A stretch of DNA of 64,000 bases from Fervidobacterium nodosum Rt17-B1 (GTDB lineage: Bacteria; Thermotogota; Thermotogae; Thermotogales; Fervidobacteriaceae), in NCBI RefSeq assembly GCF_000017545.1, contig NC_009718.1:1736001-1800000 (forward strand). Reading direction: 5' to 3'. Of this stretch, positions 30,904-46,532 are shown piece after piece. The first letter of the stretch is position 1; each line of letters starts with the position of its first letter. The translations under genes were made by a program, and so were the position numbers. The notes beneath the pieces are model-generated. The model was not told the origin of the DNA. It ran no database searches and saw only the letters and a program-made list of their open reading frames with translations.

Positions 30904-30962
30904 TGAAGGATTTGGAGGGAAATTAGGAGAGTGATAAAATTCATCTTAGAGGGGTGAGTCGT

Positions 30963-31379
30963 ATGCAGAGCAGGAAAGAGTATTCTCCAGAGTTCAAACT
31001 TACTGTCGTCAAGGAATATCTTAACGGTGATAAGTCACAAGCGCAGATTTGTGAGAAATATTCAATCTCTCCCAGCATATTCTTCAGATGGTTGAAGAAT
31101 TACAAGGAATCAGGATACGATGATTCAGTATTCAATGTCAGCAGAGGAAGGCCGGGATCAATCATATCAGATTATTCAAAGATACCGCCATTCATCTTTG
31201 AATCGGCAGGTGTTCGGAGAGACGATTCAACCAATCCGAACGACACAATTGCCTTGAAACGGAAACTTGAATACTACGAGAAGATACTGCTCGAGAAGGA
31301 AGTACAATTGAGGATAGCATTAGACCAAATAGAGTTATTAAAAAAAACAAACAGCAAGAAAGAGAATCAACAAAAGTAA
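30963..31379 (+). CDS. IS3-family OrfA (helix-turn-helix protein)
   Basis: A 138-aa protein with a transposase_8-type HTH (YSPEFKLTVVKEYLNGD...ICEKYSISPSIFFRWLKNYK) and a C-terminal leucine-zipper-like coiled coil (about 95-130). The start is ATG 30963 with GAGGGG upstream. Near its end an A8 tract (31340-31347) is a likely -1 slippage site. From there the orfB frame is open, so a fused OrfAB transposase can be made. Confidence 0.85.
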   Translation: MQSRKEYSPEFKLTVVKEYLNGDKSQAQICEKYSISPSIFFRWLKNYKESGYDDSVFNVSRGRPGSIISDYSKIPPFIFESAGVRRDDSTNPNDTIALKRKLEYYEKILLEKEVQLRIALDQIELLKKTNSKKENQQK

Positions 31380-31399
31380 AATCGACAAATGTTGGAGAA

Positions 31400-32362
31400 T
31401 TGTTAATAAGTTTGAAGTACAAGAGAATTGGAGTATGCCTAAGATATCTTTTAGGGAAGTTTCAAATGAGTTCAAGCACATTTTACGCAACAACACGAAC
31501 GTTCTTTTCAATAGATTGGATAAAGGGAAAGAGCAAAAGAAGATGCAAAGGCTACTCAACAAAGGTAACAGGGGAAACAATCAGCGACGAAGAAATAGAG
31601 GGACTTTTAGTTACGATATACGAGAATGAGAACTGTAATGATCCAGAATACTACATCAAGACACTTGGAGACAAGAAGCTCTCGAAAGTACTGAAGAGAA
31701 GATACGGAATAATAGTAAATCACAAGAAAATATACAGAATGAGGAAAGAACTCGGACTAATACGTAAGTACAAGAAACATGCAAAACATCCAAAGAAAAG
31801 GCCAAAGGATCATGAAATAGGAGAGACAAATAGATATTGGGAAGCAGACATTAAATTCATACCGACAAAGAAAGACGGATACGTACCGATGCTTGACATA
31901 ATAGACGTGAGAGACAAAACGATAGTAGGGACACATTTGGGACAGAAGAGCAAATCGAAGAACTTCATAGAATGCATAGAAAGAGCGATAGAATACAGGA
32001 AAGTAGATACGAAGAAACTGACGATAAGGACAGACAATGGGCCACAATTCAAATCAAAAGCAACGGAAGGATACCTGGAAGAAATGGGAATAGAGCATGA
32101 ATTTGGATACAAGAACAATCCAAACAGCCAAGCATACATAGAGTCACATCATTCAGTAGTAGAGAGAGAATTCGTACAAATGAATGAATTTGAGTACATA
32201 GAAGACGTATACAATGCATACAAAGCATACATATACTTCTACCAAGAGATAAGGCCGCACGGATCATTAGGATATATGACACCGAGCGAATATGATGAAC
32301 TATTAAACGAGCAAGAAAGTAGGAAAGGCGCAATTAACAGAGTGGTGGTTGTGAAAAAATGA
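31400..32362 (+). CDS. IS3-family OrfB (DDE integrase)
   Basis: A 320-aa rve-type integrase with catalytic residues in YWEADIKFIPT (Asp), IRTDNGPQFKS (Asp) and NNPNSQAYIESHHSVVERE (Glu). The frame extends upstream without a stop to the A8 slippery site inside orfA, so the functional product is probably OrfAB made by programmed -1 frameshifting rather than a protein started at TTG 31400. Confidence 0.88.
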   Translation: MLISLKYKRIGVCLRYLLGKFQMSSSTFYATTRTFFSIDWIKGKSKRRCKGYSTKVTGETISDEEIEGLLVTIYENENCNDPEYYIKTLGDKKLSKVLKRRYGIIVNHKKIYRMRKELGLIRKYKKHAKHPKKRPKDHEIGETNRYWEADIKFIPTKKDGYVPMLDIIDVRDKTIVGTHLGQKSKSKNFIECIERAIEYRKVDTKKLTIRTDNGPQFKSKATEGYLEEMGIEHEFGYKNNPNSQAYIESHHSVVEREFVQMNEFEYIEDVYNAYKAYIYFYQEIRPHGSLGYMTPSEYDELLNEQESRKGAINRVVVVKK

Positions 32363-32389
32363 GACTCGCTTAATTATTCTCCAAAAACA

Positions 32390-32618
32390 GGGGGTTTAAC
32401 CGGGAGGGATAATAGACATTCTGATAGAAAACAACGGGGTTGCGTATATAATTGAGCTGAAGGTTGACAAAAGTGCAAAAGAAGCGCTTGAACAGATAAA
32501 GGAAAGAAGATATTATGAAGGATTCACAAGCAAGAAATGTTATCTTATAGGTGTGAGTATAGATAGTCGGTTAAAAAACATAAAGGAATGGACCTACGAA
32601 GTTATCGAGGCAAAGTAA
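32390..32618 (+). pseudogene. C-terminal PD-(D/E)XK nuclease remnant of the split AAA gene
   Basis: In frame to TAA 32616-32618, this encodes GFNREGIIDILIENN, then VAYIIELKVDKSAKEAL and KERRYYEGF. The Asp in IIDIL and the ELK triad are the PD-(D/E)XK nuclease signature of the same family as the 29653 gene. No start codon or ribosome site precedes it. Confidence 0.8.
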
Positions 32619-32636
32619 AAAGCGAGGTTGATAACG

Positions 32637-33107
32637 ATGGAGAAATTTCCACCTATGCGTAGAAAAGATAGAGAATTACCAGAACAACAAACGTTTGAAA
32701 TACTCAAATCCGGTGATTATGGTGTCTTAGCAACATTTAACGGCGAATATCCATATGGGATACCAGTAAACTATGCATTTGATGGAGAGTATATCTATAT
32801 TCACTGTGCTAAAGAAGGTCATAAGATAGAAAACATAAAAAAATTTTCAAACGTATGCTTTACTATTGTCAAAAGCTACGAAATTTTGCCTGATGAACTA
32901 TCAACTGCATATGAAAGCGTAATTGCCTTTGGAAAAGCTTCAATAGTTGAAAATGAAGACGAAAAGCGCGGAGCACTTGAACTGATAGGAAAGAAATATT
33001 CAAATAACTTAGAGAAAATAAAAGGCGAAATCGCAGATTCAATACAGAGAGTGAGCATTATAAAAATAGAAATCGAACACATATCTGGTAAATCAAGAAA
33101 AAGATAG
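32637..33107 (+). CDS. Nim-type flavin-binding protein (pyridoxamine 5'-phosphate oxidase fold)
   Basis: A 156-aa FMN-binding split-barrel protein. Typical features are PMRRKDRELPEQQTFEILKSGDYGVLAT, the GIPVNYAFDGEYIYIHCAKEGHKIENI core and AYESVIAFGKASIVE. Relatives include 5-nitroimidazole reductases (NimA) and other small flavoproteins; the substrate here is unknown. ATG 32637 is preferred to TTG 32628. The last 49 codons and the terminator are repeated at 38337-38583. Confidence 0.85.
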   Translation: MEKFPPMRRKDRELPEQQTFEILKSGDYGVLATFNGEYPYGIPVNYAFDGEYIYIHCAKEGHKIENIKKFSNVCFTIVKSYEILPDELSTAYESVIAFGKASIVENEDEKRGALELIGKKYSNNLEKIKGEIADSIQRVSIIKIEIEHISGKSRKR

Positions 33108-33206
33108 TATATCGCAAAATGCGATATCGCATTTTGCGATATTTTTTTCATTTGTCAGAAATTTCCATCCTGGGTGTCTATATATATGAAAAGGAAAAAA
33201 TCCCAA
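32961..33206 (+). repeat. Direct repeat unit A (3' end of nim gene, terminator and following 60 bp)
   Basis: About 246 bp nearly identical to 38337-38583. I see a handful of differences: GGAG versus TATG near the left edge, one silent C/T, and one inserted T after the stop. The right edge of this copy is exactly where the IS6-like element begins. Confidence 0.9.
33109..33148 (+). terminator. 34-bp perfect palindrome terminator
   Basis: Positions 33109-33142 form a perfect palindrome (ATATCGCAAAATGCGAT and its complement) directly after the stop codon, followed by six T. A copy is at 38486-38519. Confidence 0.9.
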
Positions 33207-34531
33207 TAGACTGTTCGGTGATATGAAAAAGTAGGGCAAAAAAGTAAAATTCTTGTTCTTCATCAAGATTTGTTTCTGAAAACCTTTGTCGTTTTTCTTC
33301 GTCGGTTTTTGAAATTGGTAATTTTCGTTCTTTGATAGTCAATTTCTAAGCTTTTTTCACTAAAAAATATCTTCACTGTCTCCACATTGCTTTTTTACTT
33401 GGATTTGATTTTTCTTTACTTGTTTGTTTTACTGTAGTGCAAATAGTTCTTGATGGTGTTCAAACAAGTAATTCAGTAACGGTTTTTGTATCTTTGTCCA
33501 GTTTTTTGCTTGATGTTTTATTCTTAGTTCTCTTTTGATATTGTGCATTACCACAAACGCTTTGATGTAATAAAACACATTCGATAATTTTTTGAATCCT
33601 CTTCTAACTTGAGTAAACATTGCAAGAAGACTATTTCTTGATTCAGCTGGTTGATTTTTCTTTGAATCGATGATTTTGTGCTTGATATTGAGTTTTTCGC
33701 AAGCTACAGCATAGGAAGGTAGACCGTCAGAGTAAACAAGTTTAGGTTTACATGGAAAGATTAGTTGCAAAGCTTCAAAAGTATCACGATTAGTGGAAAC
33801 AACAAAGTTAACGATTCTGTACTTACTCACGGCAAAGAAAATGTACAAATTACGTCTTTCATCACCGATTTTGATTTTCTCAAACTTCTCATCGACGTTG
33901 ATAATATCAGACAGGATAGGAGAAAATACGATAGCTTTAGAAAGATTGATGATCCACTGATAAATAGTAGATACACTTGGAGAGTAACCTTGAGAAATTA
34001 AAACATTTCTAATTTGTCTGATAGACAAATTAGAATAGAAAAGCTCAAAGGCATGCAAGCAGACAGAAATAGGATACTTAGGCGAAAAACGGATAGAAGA
34101 GAAATACTCAACCAAAGAAAGAGTAAAAAGGTCAACGTTAGTTTTGAAATCACAAGTGCGACAACGGAAACGGACGTAAGAATGACGGACTTTGGAGATT
34201 TTCATGGGGCGATCACAATGAGGGCAGCGAGGATAAGGGAAATCGAAGCGTTTCTTACGCTGAGCTTTAGGGAAAGAGAAAGTGCGTTTACATTCAGAAC
34301 AGATGAAACTGGTAACTTGAACCAAAGAACCATCGGGAGCACGACGATGATAGTGAGCGTTGATGTAGACTTTAGTTGGATGATCGCAGTAAGGACAGCG
34401 AGGACGATTGGAGAAGTCGGATTTACGTGGCATAGGGTAATCTACTTTCGTGAGGATGGAGGGGGGTGTACCCCTCTTTAAGAATTATACAACGAATTCG
34501 GATGGTTATCATAATTTTATCGAACAGTCTA
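33207..34531 (-). mobile_element. IS6-like insertion sequence
   Basis: Inverted ends TAGACTGTTCG (33207-33217) and CGAACAGTCTA (34521-34531) enclose one transposase gene, 1,325 bp in all. The two flanks carry no matching target duplication: left is the nim/DUF2828 spacer and right is glgP. That is the expected outcome of an adjacent deletion or of recombination between two copies. Confidence 0.8.
33429..34433 (-). CDS. DDE transposase of the IS6/IS240-like type with zinc-ribbon N-terminus
   Basis: A 334-aa transposase. Two zinc-ribbon units at the N-terminus (CPYCDHPTKV...CSECKRTF and CPHCDRPMKI...CRTCDF) are followed by a helical DNA-binding segment (LSIRQIRNVLISQGYSPSVSTIYQWI). The DDE core has Asp in INVDEKFEKIKI, Asp in LVYSDGLPSY and Glu in NQPAESRNSLLAMF. 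It spans nearly the whole element. Transposition of this group is replicative, which suits its place at a rearrangement joint. Confidence 0.85.
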   Translation of the reverse strand: MPRKSDFSNRPRCPYCDHPTKVYINAHYHRRAPDGSLVQVTSFICSECKRTFSFPKAQRKKRFDFPYPRCPHCDRPMKISKVRHSYVRFRCRTCDFKTNVDLFTLSLVEYFSSIRFSPKYPISVCLHAFELFYSNLSIRQIRNVLISQGYSPSVSTIYQWIINLSKAIVFSPILSDIINVDEKFEKIKIGDERRNLYIFFAVSKYRIVNFVVSTNRDTFEALQLIFPCKPKLVYSDGLPSYAVACEKLNIKHKIIDSKKNQPAESRNSLLAMFTQVRRGFKKLSNVFYYIKAFVVMHNIKRELRIKHQAKNWTKIQKPLLNYLFEHHQELFALQ

Positions 34532-35151
34532 GAACAGTCTCTAAATTTCAAATTACCCTTTTCATCTGTATAAGGTTCACTTCTGCCAAAAAATCTAACC
34601 TTTACCGCTTCTTCCGGCTTTGGAAATTCCCATGGATATCCATTCTTTAGCCAATCATCTGGGAGTTCCTTTTGAAATCCATTTTCGATAGCTTGTTTAA
34701 ACAGGCCGTATTGATACCTAATCGTGTATCCGTAAGAAAGGCAACCGAGGGTGGCTAAGGAATCGAGAAAACAGGCGGCAAGTCTTCCAAGTCCACCGTT
34801 ACCAAGCGCTGCATCTTCTTCCAAAAGCGCAATTTCATCGAGAGATACGTTGTATTTACTCAAAAGTTCTTTAACTTCATCTTCCGCTTTCAAGTTCAAG
34901 ATATTGTTGTACAACAACCTACCTATCAAAAATTCCATCGATAGATAATTGACTATTTTCAGATCTTTCTTTTTGTAGATTATCTCTTCTGTGTTGAGCC
35001 ATTTTTCGGCAATCAGGTCTCTAACAGAGTAGGAAAGTGCAAAGAATTTCTGTAGCAACGTGGAATACTCCGTTTTTTCCGCCAAGGAATGATGCATGTG
35101 GTACTTAAATTGCGTCGATAAGTCTAGTTTTTTGCTATTTCTTGCCACCAT
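34532..35151 (-). pseudogene. glgP: Glycogen phosphorylase N-terminal fragment (GT35)
   Basis: About 205 residues from a plausible start (ATG 35151, AAGGGG ribosome site) through LSMEFLIGRLL, LEEDAALGNGGLGRLAACFLDSLATLG and YGYTIRYQYGLFKQ, all hallmark segments of alpha-glucan phosphorylases. Homology ends at the IS6-like inverted repeat at 34531; the open frame continues to 34423 only through IS sequence. The catalytic PLP domain is absent, so the product is inactive. The missing part should adjoin another copy of this IS elsewhere if the cause was IS-mediated. Confidence 0.9.
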
Positions 35152-35301
35152 CCGCACCCCTTTTCTAAAACTTCAGAACCGTTTCCAACAAAAATCCATC
35201 TTAAAATTTACACTAAATTCGAAAAATGTCAAATACACAAGGAAAAACGAACATACTCTTGAATTCTCAAATTTTAGACGATTAAATGTTGTTTTGTGAT
35301 G

Positions 35302-38260: not shown

Positions 38261-38336
38261 CTCTATTCTTTTTAGAGTTCCATTTATGTTATTTTGTTTT
38301 TCTATCTGGTAAGTATGTCCATACCCATTCGTGGAT

Positions 38337-38483
38337 GAAAAGCGCTATGCACTTGAACTGATAGGAAAGAAATATTCAAATAACTTAGAGAAAATAAAAG
38401 GTGAAATCGCAGATTCAATACAGAGAGTGAGCATTATAAAAATAGAAATCGAACACATATCTGGTAAATCAAGAAAAAGATAG
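38337..38483 (+). pseudogene. 3' remnant of a nim-like flavoprotein gene
   Basis: Forty-eight codons matching the end of the 32637 gene with one residue difference (Tyr for Gly). It has no start and no FMN-binding core. It shows that the nim gene originally stood directly before the DUF2828-like gene. Confidence 0.8.
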
Positions 38484-38485
38484 TT

Positions 38486-38525
38486 ATATCGCAAAATGCG
38501 ATATCGCATTTTGCGATATTTTTTT
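38486..38525 (+). terminator. 34-bp perfect palindrome terminator, second copy
   Basis: Same palindrome as at 33109-33142, again followed by a T-run. It precedes the leader of the DUF2828-like gene. Confidence 0.88.
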
Positions 38526-38541
38526 CATTTGTCAGAAATTT

Positions 38542-38589
38542 CCATCCTGGGTGTCTATATATATGAAAAGGAAAAAATCCCAAGGATGG
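38542..38589 (+). promoter_or_regulatory. Hairpin in the leader of the DUF2828/TROVE-like gene
   Basis: CCATCCTGGG (38542-38551) pairs with CCCA-A-GGATGG (38579-38589), a 10-bp stem with one bulged A. The loop is AT-rich and includes TATATATATG. The 3' arm abuts the ribosome site GGGGGTG of the gene at 38601. It may regulate translation or be part of a small structured RNA. Confidence 0.5.
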
Positions 38590-38600
38590 GGGTGCTTGGC

Positions 38601-39995
38601 ATGATGAAAACTAACGAAGGTGGAAATACATACGAATTCTCTCTCAATCACCATCTTGAGTTCTTCTCTAAAGCTGGAAGCCTCTTTGAAGGCAGATACT
38701 CATTTTACGGACAAGAAGAATCCGCACTTTCTCTTTTCCAGAAGATGTGGGCAATCGATAGAATTGAAGATAGAGCACTTGCCATGAAACTACTCTTCTG
38801 GCTTAGAGACTGCCGTGGTGGGGCGGGTAATCGCAGTGGCTTTAGAAAATGTGCCAGATGGCTTGCCAAAAACGACTCAAAATGGCTTGAAGTAAACATG
38901 CATTTAATCCCAGAATACGGTCGTTGGGACGACCTTAAGATACTCTTTGGTACACCACTTGAAGACCAAGCAGCTAAACTTTGGGCTGAAGCCATAACTG
39001 AAAAAAACGTACTTGCAGCTAAATGGGCGAAAAGAGAATACAAACCCGTTCAACGTGCTCTTGGTCTAAACGAAGCAGGCTTAAGAAAATTACTTGCTAA
39101 CATTAGAAAACAACACATAGTTGAGCACAAAATGTGCCAAGACATGTGGAAAGAAATCGAATACGAAAAGGTACCTTCAGTTGCAATGGCAAGATACACA
39201 CGTGCCTTCTTAAGGCATGATAAAGAAGGCTTTGAAACATACAAATCCAAACTTTCTAACGGAGAAGCTAAGATAAATACACAAGCACTCTATCCACACG
39301 ACTGTGTAAGAACAGTCTTCTTTGGCGATAAAGAATTAGCAGACCTTCAATTTGAAAATTTACCAAACTTCATGCCGGAAAATTACAAAGTCATAGTAAT
39401 CTCCGACACCTCGGGAAGCATGTCAGTTCCTGTTAGTGGTTCAATACAGGCAGTCGATATTTCCATAGGACTTGCTCTGTATTGCTCTGCAAAAATCCCA
39501 CAAGATAACCCATTCCACAAGAAATTCATAGCTTTCGAATCAGAAAGTGAGTTTAAGAACTGGAACGGTATGAAATTCAGCGAAGCGGTTACGAACAGAG
39601 AAATTTTCGATGGTGCTTGTGGTGCCACGAGGATAGATAAAGCATTGAAATTGATCCTTGATACGGCAAGATTTTACAACCTAAGACAAGAACAACTACC
39701 AGACGTCTTACTCATCGTCTCAGATATGCAATTCCACATGGGTGTGGAAGGGGAAGGAACAGAAGTTGAAAAAGTCTTAAAACAATTCCAAGAAAATGGA
39801 TACATACCACCGAAAATCGTTTACTGGAACACAGCAGGATACGCAGGAAGCCCTGCAACGGTCAACACACCAAATACGGTTCTAATCTCAGGTTTCAGCC
39901 CATCAGTACTAAAATACGTCTTTGCATCGGATTTCTCACCAATGAGCGTGCTCTACGCTACAGTTGAAAAATACAAAGTTAACATACCAAACTAA
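38601..39995 (+). CDS. DUF2828/TROVE-like protein with von Willebrand factor A domain
   Basis: A 464-aa protein resembling Ro60/TROVE proteins and the DUF2828 family. The N-terminal helical-repeat part has LLFWLRDCRGGAGNRSGFRKCARWLA and LIPEYGRWDDLKIL (residues about 55-125). The C-terminal vWA domain carries the metal-ion site DTSGSMS (near 270), a Thr further on (GATRID) and LLIVSDMQF. Ro proteins bind misfolded RNA and Y RNAs, and DUF2828 proteins are less studied. ATG 38601 (or 38604) follows GGGGGTG; a longer frame to 38496 has no ribosome site. It stands alone between two terminators. Confidence 0.82.
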   Translation: MMKTNEGGNTYEFSLNHHLEFFSKAGSLFEGRYSFYGQEESALSLFQKMWAIDRIEDRALAMKLLFWLRDCRGGAGNRSGFRKCARWLAKNDSKWLEVNMHLIPEYGRWDDLKILFGTPLEDQAAKLWAEAITEKNVLAAKWAKREYKPVQRALGLNEAGLRKLLANIRKQHIVEHKMCQDMWKEIEYEKVPSVAMARYTRAFLRHDKEGFETYKSKLSNGEAKINTQALYPHDCVRTVFFGDKELADLQFENLPNFMPENYKVIVISDTSGSMSVPVSGSIQAVDISIGLALYCSAKIPQDNPFHKKFIAFESESEFKNWNGMKFSEAVTNREIFDGACGATRIDKALKLILDTARFYNLRQEQLPDVLLIVSDMQFHMGVEGEGTEVEKVLKQFQENGYIPPKIVYWNTAGYAGSPATVNTPNTVLISGFSPSVLKYVFASDFSPMSVLYATVEKYKVNIPN

Positions 39996-40104: not shown

Positions 40105-40128
40105 AATGTCCTGTTTAATTTGGGAAAT
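40105..40128 (+). repeat. Dispersed 24-bp motif, copy 1
   Basis: Fits the consensus AATGTCCnnnnTAATTTGG followed by GGAA. It lies 37 bp before the first RNase H-like gene and marks the left edge of the Cas1 module. Confidence 0.65.
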
Positions 40129-40164
40129 TCCATCCTGAAATTCAAAGCAAGGAGGTGTATTATT

Positions 40165-40614
40165 TTGGACAGACCAATAGAGATCTACGTTGATGGTGCG
40201 TTTAAAGGAGGACTGATCGCATACGGATATGTAATTCACAACAGCGATTGCTCAAAAGCTATCGACGTACAAGTTAAAAGACCAACTACGCACTTTCAAA
40301 ACGTAGAAGCCGAAATCACAGCTGTACTTGAAGCACTTAGACACATTTACAGAAACTACTGGACTACAAATACCGGAAAAATAATACTATACTACGACCT
40401 CAACCTGATAAAGGACATTATATACAACAGAAAACTGCAGCTTAAAAACCCATATTATGAAAACTACGCCACGGAATTTAGAACACTTGAAGAACACCTT
40501 AAGTGCGAAGTGATCTTTAAGAAAGTAACAAACAACCCAATACACAATTATATTGACGAAGAAATTAGGAAAAAACTAAACTCCTCACTCAAAAACAAAC
40601 TACAATCACTATGA
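40165..40614 (+). CDS. RNase H-like protein 1
   Basis: A 149-aa protein with the RNase HI fold: IEIYVDGAFKGGLIAYGYVI (first strands, Asp10), NVEAEITAVLEALRHI (Glu48/Glu50 on helix A), LYYDLNLIKDII (Asp78) and a C-terminal HNYIDEEIRKKL that supplies a fourth acidic residue. The classical RNase HI acidic site is therefore present. The TTG start is chosen because AAGGAGGTG lies 9 bp before it; the upstream ATG frame has no ribosome site. It is a paralogue of the 41791 gene, sharing TTxxQNVEAE and YYD/CYD-L motifs at the same positions. In this module it accompanies a Cas1, suggesting processing of RNA-DNA hybrids during integration. Confidence 0.75.
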   Translation: MDRPIEIYVDGAFKGGLIAYGYVIHNSDCSKAIDVQVKRPTTHFQNVEAEITAVLEALRHIYRNYWTTNTGKIILYYDLNLIKDIIYNRKLQLKNPYYENYATEFRTLEEHLKCEVIFKKVTNNPIHNYIDEEIRKKLNSSLKNKLQSL

Positions 40615-40653
40615 CTCCAACTCTGAAAATAATCAAAAAAGGAGGTAGAAAAT

Positions 40654-41178
40654 ATGTTTGGTTTCATTCCTTTAACAGAACCTGAAGTAAAAGAAATGCT
40701 TGAGATTATGACCCAAAACGACGCATCACACAAAAAATTCATGTTCACTCTAATTAACAACAACGACATTATCGCATTTGGCTTATCAATTCTAATCTCG
40801 TTTGTTATCGATCCAGTAATAATAGCTACTATTTACGGTGGTAGCATACTCAAATTTCTTTTAGCAACGTACTTTTCCTACATGATAGCTAATTACATCA
40901 TTAACGGTGGTATATATTACACATATATAGCAATAAAATTTGCAAGTACGAGAAAACTAAAATTGAAAGTAACCCTAAACAGCATACTGAACTCCGCGTT
41001 TCACGTTGGTCTTTTAACAATAGCTTTATTTCTCTTCGTATTTGTATTACGCATCAACACATTACAATTTGCGGCAGTTGTAAACGACAAATACAACGTA
41101 CCATTTGAAGATTTCAAAGCTATATTTAAACATGTACCATTCGTAGTTCTGCACTTTGCGTTCTTATTTGGAATATAG
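40654..41178 (+). CDS. Membrane protein of the Cas1 module, unknown function
   Basis: A 174-aa protein with a soluble N-terminal 35 residues and about four transmembrane helices (AFGLSILISFVIDPVIIATI, FLLATYFSYMIANYIINGG, VGLLTIALFLFVFVL and VPFVVLHFAFLFG). No motif is recognised. AAGGAGG precedes the ATG. The next gene follows within 19 bp, so they are co-transcribed. Confidence 0.7.
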   Translation: MFGFIPLTEPEVKEMLEIMTQNDASHKKFMFTLINNNDIIAFGLSILISFVIDPVIIATIYGGSILKFLLATYFSYMIANYIINGGIYYTYIAIKFASTRKLKLKVTLNSILNSAFHVGLLTIALFLFVFVLRINTLQFAAVVNDKYNVPFEDFKAIFKHVPFVVLHFAFLFGI

Positions 41179-41197
41179 AAAAGAAAGGAGGAAGAAC

Positions 41198-41545
41198 ATG
41201 GAAAGAATGGAAAGAATACTGTTTGGTAAATTCATAGGTGACGTAGGCATGATGACAATACTTGTCAAAGCTGAAGAATTAGACAATCTACCAAACTGGA
41301 TTTGGATAGATTGCGAAGAAGACTCTCAGAAACCAGACTACGTTTTATTTGAAATCTTAGACTCAGTCCCCGAAGTTGGTGAAATAGATGGAAACATATA
41401 CTACATTTACGGTGAATTCAACGAAGAAAAGTACCAACATGCTGAACCGATTACTACTTTCCAAGATTACAGTATAGACTTAGACTTTTTTCAAACAATA
41501 CAAGACGAATGCGAGTGGGAAATTGTACATTATTTAGATTACTAA
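41198..41545 (+). CDS. Small acidic protein of the Cas1 module, unknown function
   Basis: A 115-aa acidic, soluble protein (DNLPNWIWIDCEEDSQKPDY, then EVGEIDGNIYYIYGEFNEEKY). The ATG at 41198 follows AAAGGAGGAAG; the longer frame from 41156 would overlap the membrane protein. Acidity and size recall small anti-restriction or DNA-mimic proteins, but there is no sequence evidence for that. Unknown. Confidence 0.65.
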   Translation: MERMERILFGKFIGDVGMMTILVKAEELDNLPNWIWIDCEEDSQKPDYVLFEILDSVPEVGEIDGNIYYIYGEFNEEKYQHAEPITTFQDYSIDLDFFQTIQDECEWEIVHYLDY

Positions 41546-41618
41546 ATTAAGAGCGCTATCGCTTCTGAAATTGAACCTCCACACAAACCCACACTATTAC
41601 CCCCACACCCCGAATAAA

Positions 41619-41642
41619 TAATGTCCCAACTAATTTGGAACC
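41619..41642 (+). repeat. Dispersed 24-bp motif, copy 2
   Basis: Matches AATGTCCnnnnTAATTTGG followed by AACC. It sits in the 245-bp gene-free stretch 41546-41790, which otherwise holds a C-rich run and no recognisable gene. Confidence 0.65.
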
Positions 41643-41734
41643 CCCTAACAAATTACACTTTCACTACTCTCACTACATACTAAAATACTAAACTTTGGGT
41701 ACAGGATCAAACCGGTACCCATGCTTTTTCAAAT

Positions 41735-41758
41735 TAATGTCCATCTTAATTTGGAAAA
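41735..41758 (+). repeat. Dispersed 24-bp motif, copy 3
   Basis: Same consensus, 116 bp after copy 2 in the same orientation, 33 bp before the second RNase H-like gene. Confidence 0.65.
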
Positions 41759-41790
41759 CAAAAATAACCTAAAAATTGGAGGTGTAAAGT

Positions 41791-42234
41791 ATGAACGGAG
41801 TAATAAGAGTCTATACTGACGGCTCTTACAAGAACGGCATGATCTCCTACGGATTCATGCTTTACGGCTTTGGTTTTGACGGAACAATAAAAGTTTCAAC
41901 GTCAAGACCTGGTACTACACTTCAAAACGTTGAAGCTGAACTCAAAGCCGTCCTTGAAGCACTCAAATACCTTAAAAGAAATTACGGTGAACTAAACAAC
42001 TACACCATCATACTCTGTTATGACCTTGAACTAATTAAAAGCATACTTACCAACCCAAGAGCACAAGCAAGAAACGGATACTTACGAAACTACGTTGAAC
42101 AATTCAGAATACTCCAACAATCCTTAGGTTGCAAGATACTCTTTGAAAAAGTAAAAGGACACTACCACGAAATACACAACAGACTCGATAGAGCTGTAAG
42201 AAGAAAACTAAACGAAGTACTTGCGTCAGCTTAG
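41791..42234 (+). CDS. RNase H-like protein 2
   Basis: A 147-aa paralogue of the 40165 product with the RNase HI active-site pattern: VYTDGSYKNGMISYGF (Asp10), LQNVEAELKAVLEAL (Glu50), ILCYDLELIK (Asp78), and a more canonical end VKGHYHEIHNRLDRAVRR (fourth Asp plus the VKGH loop). ATG follows GGAGGTG. A terminator comes 17 bp after the stop, yet cas1 begins only 68 bp downstream. Two diverged copies in one module suggest separate tasks or a heterodimer. Confidence 0.8.
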   Translation: MNGVIRVYTDGSYKNGMISYGFMLYGFGFDGTIKVSTSRPGTTLQNVEAELKAVLEALKYLKRNYGELNNYTIILCYDLELIKSILTNPRAQARNGYLRNYVEQFRILQQSLGCKILFEKVKGHYHEIHNRLDRAVRRKLNEVLASA

Positions 42235-42251
42235 TAAATTACTCTCCCTTC

Positions 42252-42269
42252 CCCCGACGCAAGTCGGGG
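42252..42269 (+). terminator. Intrinsic terminator before cas1
   Basis: CCCCGAC (42252-42258) and GTCGGGG (42263-42269) with a GCAA tetraloop, then TTTTTC. It would uncouple cas1 expression from the RNase H-like genes. Confidence 0.85.
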
Positions 42270-42302
42270 TTTTTCTAACAACCTAACAAGAAGGTGGAAA
42301 AA

Positions 42303-43307
42303 ATGACAATATATGTCTTAGAACAAGGAACAGTACTCGCTAAAAAAGATGGCAGAATGATTATAACCAAAGCCAAACAAGTATTAGACGAAATACCACT
42401 CAAAAAAATAGAAAGAATCAACCTACTTGGAAACATCACGCTAACATCTCAAATGATTAACTACTGCCTCGATAACAAAATCGAAGTAATCTTCATGACA
42501 CAACACGGAAGATACAGGGGAAAACTCTATACAGACGAATACAGAAACGTACTCCTAAGACTTAAACAATACGAAAGAGCAACCGACAAACAGTTCCAAC
42601 TCGAAATATCCAAATCGATAGTCCAAGGCAAACTACAAAACTACTACAACTTCCTAACCCAGAAAAGCAAAAACCTCCCAAAAGGATTATTAAGTGAAGA
42701 AAGAGCTGGAATAAGAACAGTAATAGAAAAAGTCAACAAAGCGAAAACAGTCGATGAAGTCAGAGGTTATGAAGGAATAGGCTCAAAAATATACTTCTCT
42801 GGTTTCAAAAAATGCATACGAACAGAAGAACTCACATTCAATGGAAGAACAGCACATCCGCCGAAAGATGAAATAAACGCAATGCTTTCACTTGGATATT
42901 ACTTTCTGTATGTAGAAATGTTATTAGCAATAAATGCAGTTGGACTTGATCCATACTTTGGGAATCTACACACAATAGATGTTTCAAAACAATCACTATT
43001 ATTTGACTTAGTTGAAGAATTCAGATGTGTGATAATCGACAACTTTGTTTTGAACCTAATCAACCTAAAAACAATAAAAAAGGAAGACTTTGAAAAACGT
43101 GAAAACGATATCTACTACTTCACAAAAGACGGTATGAAAAAATACATAACTGAATACGAACAAATGATGAAACAAAAACTCAAATACCACTTAGATTCAG
43201 AAGAAAATTACATACGTACAATATTCGAAAAACAAGCACGACATTATGCAAGAGTCGTATTAGGCGACGAAGAAAAATACCAGCCATACTACTTAGAAAA
43301 AATTTAA
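42303..43307 (+). CDS. cas1: Cas1 endonuclease/integrase without adjacent Cas2 or CRISPR
   Basis: A 334-aa Cas1 of normal length. The N-terminal beta domain (MTIYVLEQGTVLAKKDGRMII) is followed by the all-helical catalytic domain with metal ligands Glu157 (RGYEGIGSKIYF), His223 (FGNLHTIDVSK) and Asp235 (LLFDLVEEFR). The GLDPYFGNLH and DLVEEFR blocks are complete, so the active site looks functional. In CRISPR systems Cas1 with Cas2 integrates spacers; solo Cas1 can be a transposase (casposase) or an orphan. ATG 42303 follows GGTGG. The space after the stop (to 43463) has no cas2 and no repeat array, only a copy of the 24-bp motif and the IS110-type element. Confidence 0.93.
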   Translation: MTIYVLEQGTVLAKKDGRMIITKAKQVLDEIPLKKIERINLLGNITLTSQMINYCLDNKIEVIFMTQHGRYRGKLYTDEYRNVLLRLKQYERATDKQFQLEISKSIVQGKLQNYYNFLTQKSKNLPKGLLSEERAGIRTVIEKVNKAKTVDEVRGYEGIGSKIYFSGFKKCIRTEELTFNGRTAHPPKDEINAMLSLGYYFLYVEMLLAINAVGLDPYFGNLHTIDVSKQSLLFDLVEEFRCVIIDNFVLNLINLKTIKKEDFEKRENDIYYFTKDGMKKYITEYEQMMKQKLKYHLDSEENYIRTIFEKQARHYARVVLGDEEKYQPYYLEKI

Positions 43308-43328
43308 TGTCATATATAACTTGGGAAC
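43305..43328 (+). repeat. Dispersed 24-bp motif, copy 4
   Basis: A weaker match (AATGTCA, N4, TAACTTGGGAA) that begins on the stop codon of cas1. With copy 1 it brackets the 3.2-kb module in direct orientation. Confidence 0.5.
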
Positions 43329-43463
43329 AACCTCAAAAAAGATTTCCGGTAATAAGTCAAGAGGAGAAAAAATAGAAAAATAAAAAACCTAGTCAACACT
43401 TTGACTTTCAATAACTTAATATTTCACTTTCATTCTTCACATACTTGATTTCGTTCTTTTTAC

Positions 43464-44621
43464 CTATTTCATCGGTACATACGGTACGTTGTTCTTTAGT
43501 AAATAATACACTAAATTTACTAATTTCCTTGCAGTTAATATTAGCGCTCTCATGTGTTTGTGTGTTGTTGCTTCTGCGTACTTTTTGCGATAATATTCTT
43601 TGTATACAGGATCGTATGTCTTTACTCCGTTCGCTGCCATTACTAGGTATGTTCTTAGATACTTGTTCCCTTTTTTCGTTAGTTGGTTGTTTTCTGATTT
43701 GTAATTTCCACTTTGATTGATTGTCCATACAAGCCCTGCGTATGATGCTAACGCTGAGGCTTTTTCGAAACGATTGATGTCTCCTATTTCGGCTATAATT
43801 CCAGCTGCAGTTATTTCTCCTATCCCTTTGACTGTTGTTAGTGTGTTCGAAATTACTTTAAGTAATTTACTTATTTCTTTCTTTACTAGTTCGATTTGTT
43901 TTTCATAGTGCTGTATCAAATCGATAGTGGAAACAATAGATATTCTCAGAGTGTTTGAAGGATTAACAGACAACCTCAAGGCATCTTTAGCAAGAGTTTG
44001 GAGTTTTTCTGCTAAGACTTGTGAAGAGACATTGTGTCTGGAAATTTTCGCAATATATTCAAATAACTCTTCAATTGGCATGTTTGCGATTTCTTCGATT
44101 GTATAATCTTTAAGCAGGCATTCGAAAGTCTTATTTAGTTTAAAGTCAAGTTTAGGGAAATAAAGAGAAACATACGAATAGAGCCTAAGTTTCAATCGAG
44201 CGATATCTTCGTTGAACTTTAAATAAAGTCTGGTGAGATTACGAAGCTCAGAGATGATATATGAGTTATTGACAAAAGGGACTAAAGACTCAGGAAATTT
44301 AGAAGCGATAGAGAAAATAAGTTCAGCATCGATTTTGTCAGTTTTAGGACGATTGAGAATTTTGCGATAGAGCTTAATGTTATCAGTTTTAACCCAAAAG
44401 ACAGGTACGTTGTTTTGAAAGAAGAAGTTAGCGACATTAAAAGAAAAAACACCAGTTGATTCAAGGACAAGAGAAAAATCGGAAGAAGAAGCAAAAGCTT
44501 TGTTAAAAAGTTCAACAATACCTTGAGGAGAGTTCTCAACAGTCCCACTACCGATGAAATCAGAAAAGAAAGAAAGATAGTTCTTTGAGACATCAATAGC
44601 TAAAATAGCCAAAGGAATCAC
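43464..44621 (-). CDS. IS110-family transposase of a second, unrelated element
   Basis: A 385-aa protein with DEDD domain (LAILAIDVSKNYLSFF, KTDKIDAELIFSIASK) and Transposase_20 domain (TTVKGIGEITAAGIIAEIGDINRF, ALASYAGLV, KKGNKYLRTYLVMAAN). Outside these family motifs it shows little similarity to the three-copy element. A GGAGGTG ribosome site precedes ATG 44621. The exact ends of the element are not visible because only one copy is in the window. Confidence 0.92.
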   Translation of the reverse strand: MIPLAILAIDVSKNYLSFFSDFIGSGTVENSPQGIVELFNKAFASSSDFSLVLESTGVFSFNVANFFFQNNVPVFWVKTDNIKLYRKILNRPKTDKIDAELIFSIASKFPESLVPFVNNSYIISELRNLTRLYLKFNEDIARLKLRLYSYVSLYFPKLDFKLNKTFECLLKDYTIEEIANMPIEELFEYIAKISRHNVSSQVLAEKLQTLAKDALRLSVNPSNTLRISIVSTIDLIQHYEKQIELVKKEISKLLKVISNTLTTVKGIGEITAAGIIAEIGDINRFEKASALASYAGLVWTINQSGNYKSENNQLTKKGNKYLRTYLVMAANGVKTYDPVYKEYYRKKYAEATTHKHMRALILTARKLVNLVYYLLKNNVPYVPMK

Positions 44622-44630
44622 CTCCGGATT

Positions 44631-44705
44631 GAGTACAGCCTTACAACCTCGCGGTACATAAGAAAACGAGGCAAAACATTTTCCGGCAAGTAAAAAGCTG
44701 TACTC
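44631..44705 (-). ncRNA. Candidate bridge RNA of the second IS110-type element
   Basis: Just upstream of the transposase start is a 75-nt foldback. The outer stem is GAGTACAGC (44631-44639) with GCTGTACTC (44697-44705), and inside it CCTCG (44647-44651) pairs with CGAGG (44667-44671). IS110-group elements encode their bridge RNA in the left non-coding end, upstream of the recombinase gene, with target- and donor-binding loops. Position and structure fit; the loops' pairing with DNA cannot be tested from one copy. The rest of 44706-44836 shows no gene. Confidence 0.5.
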
Positions 44706-44836
44706 TAGTTAGGCAATCTTATTTAAGAGAACAAAGTCTCAAGGAGGGGCAACCTGAAACTATTTTACCAGAGGTGTTAAAAAATATGCATTCAATTTTC
44801 AAAGACCAATTTTAATTTTTACCGAACTTATTATAC

Positions 44837-46532
44837 GAGCATTCCTGTAAGGAAAAATAGATTTTGAAAAAAGTATCGCCTCCTGATAATATATAATTAC
44901 CCCATCACACTAAAATCAGGAGGCGATACCATGGAACAAAAGTATGTTAATCCAAAAGTTTCAAGAATTTCTCAAGACACTCTAATTGTCGGTATTGATG
45001 TTGCTAAAAGAAATCATTGGGTTAGGATGACTGATTATCGTGGAATTGATTTGATTAGCCCTTTCAAGATTAATAATACCATAGATGGTATTAAAATGTT
45101 AGAGGAAAAAATAAGAATTATTAAGCAAAAGGAAGGGTTAAACAACGTAATCTTAGGCATGGAACCATCAGGGCATTATTGGAAGGTTTTAGCTTGGCAA
45201 ATGAAATCTAACGAGCAAGTAAATTATCTTGTTGGAGTAAATCCATATCATGTGAAGAAAAGCAAAGAATTTGATGATAACTCACCTAGTAAAAATGACA
45301 AGAAAGATGCAGGATTAATAGCCAAATTAATCAAAGATGGAAGATATTTCGATATGCATTTATCAAATGATGTGTATAGTGAGTTAAAAGTATTAACCAC
45401 GACAAGGGAACAATTAGTAAGTAAGAGAAAAAATTCAAAAAATATTGTAATAGCTATAATAGACGAATACTTTCCTGAGTATAAGAAGATATACAAAAAC
45501 ATATTTTCGGAAGGTTCGATGAAATTATTAAAGACCTATCCATTTCCAGAAGAGATATTAAGAGTTGGAGTAGAAGAAATAGAAAGTGTATTGAAAGAAT
45601 CGACAAAGGGGAAAGACTGGAAAAGTAGGGCGCGGAAGATATACGAAGCAGCGAGAGAATCGGTAGGAGTAAGAGCAGGGCAAAAAAGTGCGAAAATGAA
45701 ATTAAGGATGCTATTGGAAGAAATAGAGCTATTAACAAGACAAATTCAAGAGCTAGAAGAAGAGATGAAAAAAATGATAGAAGAAACAGAAGAAGGGGAA
45801 TATATAGAAAGTGTGCCAGGGATAGGAACGGTAATGACAGCCACGATATTAGGAGAGACAGGAGGGTTAAGCAGGTTTAAAAGCTGGAAACAAATAAGGA
45901 AATTAGCTGGATTGAACCTGTACGAAGAAAGTTCTGGAGAACACAAAGGAAAAACGCGGATAACAAAAAGAGGGCGGCCGTTACTGAGGAAAATAATATA
46001 CTTGATGGCAAAAACGGTGATAAGACATAACCGTGAAATAATGGAAAAATATTTAAAACTGAGGAAAAGAGAAAAAAATCCATTAAAAGAGACACAAGCA
46101 TTGATAGCAATAGGATTGAAAATGATAAGGATAATATTCAAGTTAGTGAAAAGCAAGACAAGATATGAACCGGAGAGAGTATATGTATAGGTGAGAAAGC
46201 CGGTCACCTCCATTAGGAAAGTAACCAGGATACGAGAATAAGCAAACTCACCATACCTCAAATAGGACGAAGGAATGTGAGAGTGTGGAACAAACCAGGT
46301 GGGCATAAGAGGGTTAGTTTGAGGGAAAATGGTGGGGAAGTAGTTAAAAAAAATAATCTAAGAAGGAATAAAGCGACATAAAAATAATGAATTAATTCAT
46401 TAAAGATAAAAAATTAAAATTATTAAGATTTTAGATAAACTCTTTTGGAAAAGAAAGGGAAGTAAGAATTTTTTGAAAAAATAAGAAAAAACGTATTTCA
46501 GGAGGCTAATCAAAAATATTTCTTTGAAGAGG
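44837..46532 (+). mobile_element. IS110-type insertion sequence, copy 3
   Basis: Same element and orientation as copies 1 and 2, with two substitutions seen in the coding part. The right flank is the N-terminal half of the permease whose other half adjoins copy 1. The left flank is the upstream region of the second IS110-type element. Confidence 0.93.
44931..46190 (+). CDS. IS110-family transposase (DEDD recombinase), copy 3
   Basis: A 419-aa protein differing from copies 1 and 2 by Glu185Lys (EYKKIYKN instead of EYEKIYKN). One further silent change is visible near codon 207. The upstream hairpin is at 44873-44929. Confidence 0.95.
   Translation: MEQKYVNPKVSRISQDTLIVGIDVAKRNHWVRMTDYRGIDLISPFKINNTIDGIKMLEEKIRIIKQKEGLNNVILGMEPSGHYWKVLAWQMKSNEQVNYLVGVNPYHVKKSKEFDDNSPSKNDKKDAGLIAKLIKDGRYFDMHLSNDVYSELKVLTTTREQLVSKRKNSKNIVIAIIDEYFPEYKKIYKNIFSEGSMKLLKTYPFPEEILRVGVEEIESVLKESTKGKDWKSRARKIYEAARESVGVRAGQKSAKMKLRMLLEEIELLTRQIQELEEEMKKMIEETEEGEYIESVPGIGTVMTATILGETGGLSRFKSWKQIRKLAGLNLYEESSGEHKGKTRITKRGRPLLRKIIYLMAKTVIRHNREIMEKYLKLRKREKNPLKETQALIAIGLKMIRIIFKLVKSKTRYEPERVYV

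Follow-up and report, generated by a model that had tools for sequence, protein, structure and literature searches.

A cas1 gene with RNase H-like neighbors in Fervidobacterium nodosum, a probable remnant of a CAPP-Argonaute type III-B CRISPR-Cas system

A CAPP-Cas1-Cas2-Argonaute operon belonging to a type III-B CRISPR-Cas system is known from Marinitoga piezophila (PMC8211822). We found a cas1 gene of the same clade, standing apart from such partners and together with two RNase H-like genes, in the complete genome (1.949 Mb) of Fervidobacterium nodosum Rt17-B1 (GCF_000017545.1). The window, meaning the whole stretch of DNA that was analyzed, spans 64,000 nt (NC_009718.1, positions 1,736,001-1,800,000, forward strand), and the module lies at its positions 40105-43328. 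Relatives were sought in a comparison set of 61 related genomes. With a probability of about 0.8, the locus is a remnant, detached and probably eroding, of a CAPP-Argonaute type III-B system that has lost its array and other genes.

The locus and its flanks

The five open frames of the module were re-checked, and their frames and coordinates hold. The features, in window coordinates, are these:

40105..40126, + strand: copy 1 of a 22-nt motif, 5′ of the gene for RNase H-like protein a
40168..40614, + strand: RNase HI-like protein a, KGH loop lost and acidic residues kept (Pfam, alignment)
40654..41178, + strand: membrane protein, one clear relative at 36% identity (G013, L097)
41198..41545, + strand: small acidic protein without confirmed relative
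41620..41641, + strand: motif copy 2, the distal site 5′ of the gene for RNase H-like protein b
41736..41757, + strand: motif copy 3, 5′ of the same gene
41791..42234, + strand: RNase HI-like protein b, active site complete, relatives in type III-B cmr loci
42252..42269, + strand: intrinsic-terminator-like hairpin with T run, between the gene for protein b and cas1
42303..43307, + strand: cas1 of the CAPP-Argonaute type III-B clade (Pfam, tree)
43306..43327, + strand: motif copy 4, of the AACTTGG variant found 5′ of CAPP operons; its downstream gene is missing
43340..44839, - strand: IS110-family element a (transposase 43464-44621), with an identical copy elsewhere in the genome
44837..46532, + strand: IS110-family element b (transposase 44931-46190), abutting element a and, with its right end, cutting into a permease-like frame

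Element a begins only 12 bp past motif copy 4. An IS110 element occurs in the window as three near-identical copies (at 2724, 25825 and 44837), with more elsewhere in the genome. Further features lie to the left. Genes for IS3-type and IS240-type transposases occupy 30954-35157, where a carbohydrate phosphorylase frame (34423-35157) seems cut short, and a 250-bp direct duplication (32958-33206 and 38334-38583, 97.6% identity) holds a palindrome around CGCAAAATGCGATATCGCATTTTGCG. The gene 5′ of the module at 38496-39995 is of the DUF2828/DUF7788 type and shows no sequence relationship with the vWA genes found in CRISPR loci of the relatives.

Relatives of the encoded proteins

Cas1 is 334 aa long from its ATG and matches Pfam Cas_Cas1 over its full length (E 2.7e-93). 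The initial annotation had described a complete active site, and its residues (E157, H223, D235) are all present. Among the 61 genomes, seven others carry a close relative (60-78% identity), the next best match being at most 37% identical. The window protein and these seven form a single eight-row clade in the Cas1 tree (support 100/100), in which the window protein groups with those of genomes G006, G009 and G013.

The surroundings of these genes are uniform. cas2 adjoins cas1 in all seven, as do genes for proteins of ~560 aa (a TPR protein of CAPP size) and ~640 aa (Argonaute), although in G005 the ~640-aa frame is cut by the contig end. In G013, Pfam assigned the smaller of the two to the AEP-TOTE primase-polymerases and found MpAgo N, MID and Piwi domains in the larger, an Argonaute; both in G013 and in G009 a radical SAM gene lies between cas2 and Argonaute (L059:4645-5508, L060:6346-7209). 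A CRISPR array is found on six of the seven stretches, and the seventh contig was covered only in part. G006 has CAPP-cas2-Ago-cas1, array and kinase-like genes all on one contig. The G009 and G013 assemblies are fragmented. Among the relatives, the three nearest have a cas1 that closes the CAPP operon, whereas here it is preceded by the terminator-like hairpin behind the gene for protein b, so that at least one further rearrangement is needed. The gene order of the module (a, membrane, acidic, b, cas1) is found in none of the relatives, so loss alone does not account for it and rearrangement has to be assumed too.

Protein b passes the Pfam RNase_H cut-off of 25.8 bits (28.2 bits) and protein a falls below it (20.0 bits); between them they share 44% identity. 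Protein b has D10, E50, D78, a KGH loop (H124) and D133, and its predicted structure (pLDDT 90) finds RNase HI structures as its first matches. Two diverged proteins of this fold with matching Asp10/Glu50/Asp78 had been noted from the start, and indeed all four acidic positions are kept in protein a as well; only b has the KGH loop, which in a is replaced by TNN. The best relatives of b (54% identity in G013, 51% in G009, 44% in G006) each lie in a cmr/CARF type III-B locus. In G009 a single contig carries the RNase H gene together with cmr and kinase genes. In G006 a repeat identical in sequence to the cas1-linked one stands before the RNase H-like gene, and the single clear relative of the membrane protein, in G013, lies 3′ of an array of the same repeat, under the same 22-nt motif.

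The initial annotation had proposed surveying Cas1 neighborhoods for co-conserved RNase H-like genes. With cas2 in seven of seven cases and arrays in six, the relatives' RNase H-like genes proved to lie outside the cas1 operon, which speaks largely against a module of the two; yet they are part of the same CRISPR system. At a cut-off of E 1e-33 or better, set after the hits were known, the short type has strong matches in 4/8 genomes of the Cas1 clade and in 0/53 others (p 1.3e-4). Scanning named genomes with the RNase H alignment gained only G009 itself and weak matches. Longer paralogous frames are found in G013 (386 aa) and in G006 (368 aa, L069:7515-8621), the latter an RNase H-like domain fused to a C-terminal part in a non-CRISPR context. 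Beside the G013 RNase H-like gene (L066:4491-8181) are genes for a SAVED-domain protein and for a protein of 961 aa that matches HD-CE weakly.

The membrane protein, putatively of four spans, and the small acidic protein are both present. The former is plainly hydrophobic by eye. The latter has 28 D/E and 6 K/R in 115 residues; it has no confirmed relative and no tie to the CRISPR system, and its structure model (pLDDT 48) is too poor for use. A reading of it as a Cmr1 fragment (25% identity), with E 2e-4 singly and 0.065 against a larger set, was rejected, the match being likely due to composition.

Missing partners and resident CRISPR loci

Neither cas2 nor an array is found anywhere in the window, as had been reported for the module's vicinity, and the CAPP primase-polymerase is likewise absent from these 64 kb. 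The G013 Argonaute used as query against the 61 genomes had matches in the seven other clade genomes only and none in the window genome, which is the only member of the Cas1 clade without it; the association of Argonaute with this clade (7/8 genomes vs 0/53) has a Fisher p of 1.8e-8, only a guide since the genomes are related. The cognate repeat has no match in the window genome at up to three mismatches. No cognate cas2 adjoins cas1, and the Cas2 matches of the genome come from two other loci only, at 31-32% identity to the G013 Cas2. A Cas10/Cmr2 query from G009, one without positive control, had no match in the window genome. No convincing remnant of a CRISPR leader was found in the window; a short left-flank match to the G009 cas1-array interval, considered as leader, was read as shared IS debris. 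Of the two explanations first offered for the locus, the second, a CRISPR adaptation fragment with its partners lost, is supported by the Cas1 clade, its neighborhoods, and the absence of Argonaute and repeat.

The genome does have CRISPR-Cas systems. Of its three cas1 genes, two belong to other cas1-cas2 loci: cas4-cas1-cas2 near 1032 kb and a type III-A locus near 1496 kb. One has about 109 repeats, and the other has csm genes with Csm1. The genes of the module might work in trans with these, Cas1 using a resident Cas2 from either locus and the RNase H-like and membrane proteins serving as III-A accessories. We consider this unlikely, even with these loci at hand and with open frames and an unaccelerated Cas1 branch arguing for recent or continuing use, because the resident loci own their cas1 genes (27-28% identical to the Cas1 at 42303-43307), their Cas2 proteins are only distantly similar to the cognate one, and the repeat of the 1032 kb array differs in sequence from the cognate repeat.

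None of the five frames is interrupted, and no acceleration is seen in Cas1: its dN to five shared, more distant relatives is 0.23-0.31, next to 0.28-0.33 for the intact G009 and G013 genes, and its end branch in the tree is 0.064. Decay is thus not visible in the genes themselves, and either the loss was recent or the genes are still used. It is also unlikely that Cas1, the RNase H-like proteins and the membrane protein were kept as a working unit under a dedicated element after the loss of Cas2, Argonaute and array, acting on RNA-DNA hybrids or with the resident III-A system. Spacer integration by this Cas1 alone, with no Cas2 of its own, is expected to fail.

The preferred reading, a remnant, starts from the arrangement in the intact relatives, where CAPP, Cas2, Argonaute and Cas1 form an adaptation operon beside the array and the RNase H-like gene belongs to a cmr/CARF part. 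In two of the relatives a single 22-nt element stands upstream of units from both parts. All that is seen in the window genome are the two RNase H-like genes, the genes for the membrane and acidic proteins, and cas1, accompanied by four copies of this element, Argonaute, the cognate Cas2 and the array being missing. Argonautes of the MpAgo type use RNA guides against DNA targets, CAPP makes primers and DNA, and both can leave RNA-DNA hybrids. In the intact system the RNase H-like protein may strip RNA from the hybrids of CAPP priming or of RNA-guided targeting.

The 22-nt element and comparison with known systems

The motif starts at 40105, 41620, 41736 and 43306, four copies on one strand where 0.17 would be expected by shuffling; copies 2 and 3 stand in tandem at a distance of 116 bp, and no further copies occur elsewhere in the window genome. 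A pattern search of the 61 genomes gave 18 hits, of which 15 are in CRISPR loci (four in the window genome, five in G009, six in G013). The other three lie inside unrelated genes, and such hits, in G022 and one in G009, were taken as chance, in line with the reversed control, which gave six hits in all. A matrix trained on the window and RNase H sites picked out two unseen sites directly 5′ of the CAPP operons in G013 and G009; it also had one hit within a CARF gene of G006. The CRISPR-locus copies of G009 and G013 precede CAPP, kinase, vWA-cmr, RNase H and membrane-protein units, always on the sense strand. Sites are single or tandem, and the motif is often 30-40 nt 5′ of the start codon.

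Such a distribution is what a system-wide promoter or operator would show, and it does not fit the ends of an element; in the relatives the motif probably serves as a common control element in front of the system's gene units. It may act as promoter or operator; a sigma-70 promoter was rejected, there being no promoter-like site at the motif copies. The module had been called motif-bounded, a description we would drop, since the copies are upstream elements of gene units and not module borders. Protein kinase, PP2C phosphatase, FHA and vWA genes occur in the relatives' type III-B systems (L095, L096, L061), with the same motif in G009 and G013; the kinase, PP2C and vWA identities are from Pfam.

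The AACTTGG variant is found in copy 4 and in the CAPP-operon sites, and in no other CRISPR site listed. This sharing suggests that a CAPP operon may once have stood downstream of copy 4. The simplest reading is that CAPP, cas2 and Argonaute were lost between copy 4 and the cut permease-like frame. Loss of the partner genes would be by IS-associated deletion, and the initial suggestion that an IS110-type element removed cas2 is plausible.

It is improbable that the motif copies are recombination or transposition sites bounding cassettes moved by Cas1 or another recombinase. Four direct copies do frame two gene blocks in an order unlike that of the relatives, but the relatives' copies are upstream of start codons, invariably sense and not regularly at the far block end, and the window genome has none outside the locus.

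More useful than the remnant, which is modest in itself, are the RNase HI family and the 22-nt element to which it points. An RNase HI would suit the RNA primers and RNA-guided hybrids expected in CAPP-Argonaute type III-B systems. One element before adaptation, effector, kinase and accessory units suggests a common regulator. The term "RNase H" is absent from the main text of PMC8211822, and in the open-licence literature, where a few works were read in detail, neither an RNase HI family of CAPP-Argonaute III-B systems nor the 22-nt element was found described. What is new is the RNase HI family and the shared cis-element tied to a known kind of CRISPR system.

The first of the two explanations originally offered, a new stand-alone Cas1-RNase H defense module or casposon-like integrating element, is very improbable: cas2, effector and array are all absent nearby and the active sites of Cas1 and protein b are complete, but this Cas1 falls inside a CRISPR adaptation clade with cas2 beside every close relative, the motif copies are direct and not inverted, the module has no polymerase gene, and a casposon or viral origin was rejected because viral contigs gave no relative for Cas1, RNase H or the membrane protein, and phage records none for RNase H. 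Like a casposase or other solo Cas1, the protein lacks a neighboring cas2; unlike these it is placed among CRISPR Cas1 proteins, with neither element ends nor polymerase, and the lack of cas2 is best read as loss. Protein b is like RNase HI (E. coli RnhA fold; PDB 2z1i, 3u3g, 4e19; sequence relative 2kq2) in its fold, acidic residues and His loop. It differs in a diverged sequence, far below the NCBI equivalog cut-offs, and in that its nearest relatives are products of type III-B loci; the His loop is missing from protein a. The closest described system is the Marinitoga piezophila operon (PMC8211822), with which the locus shares a Cas1 clade that stands beside CAPP, Cas2 and MpAgo-type Argonaute, and from which it differs in lacking CAPP, Cas2, Argonaute and array and in having two RNase H-like genes, a membrane protein and the 22-nt element.
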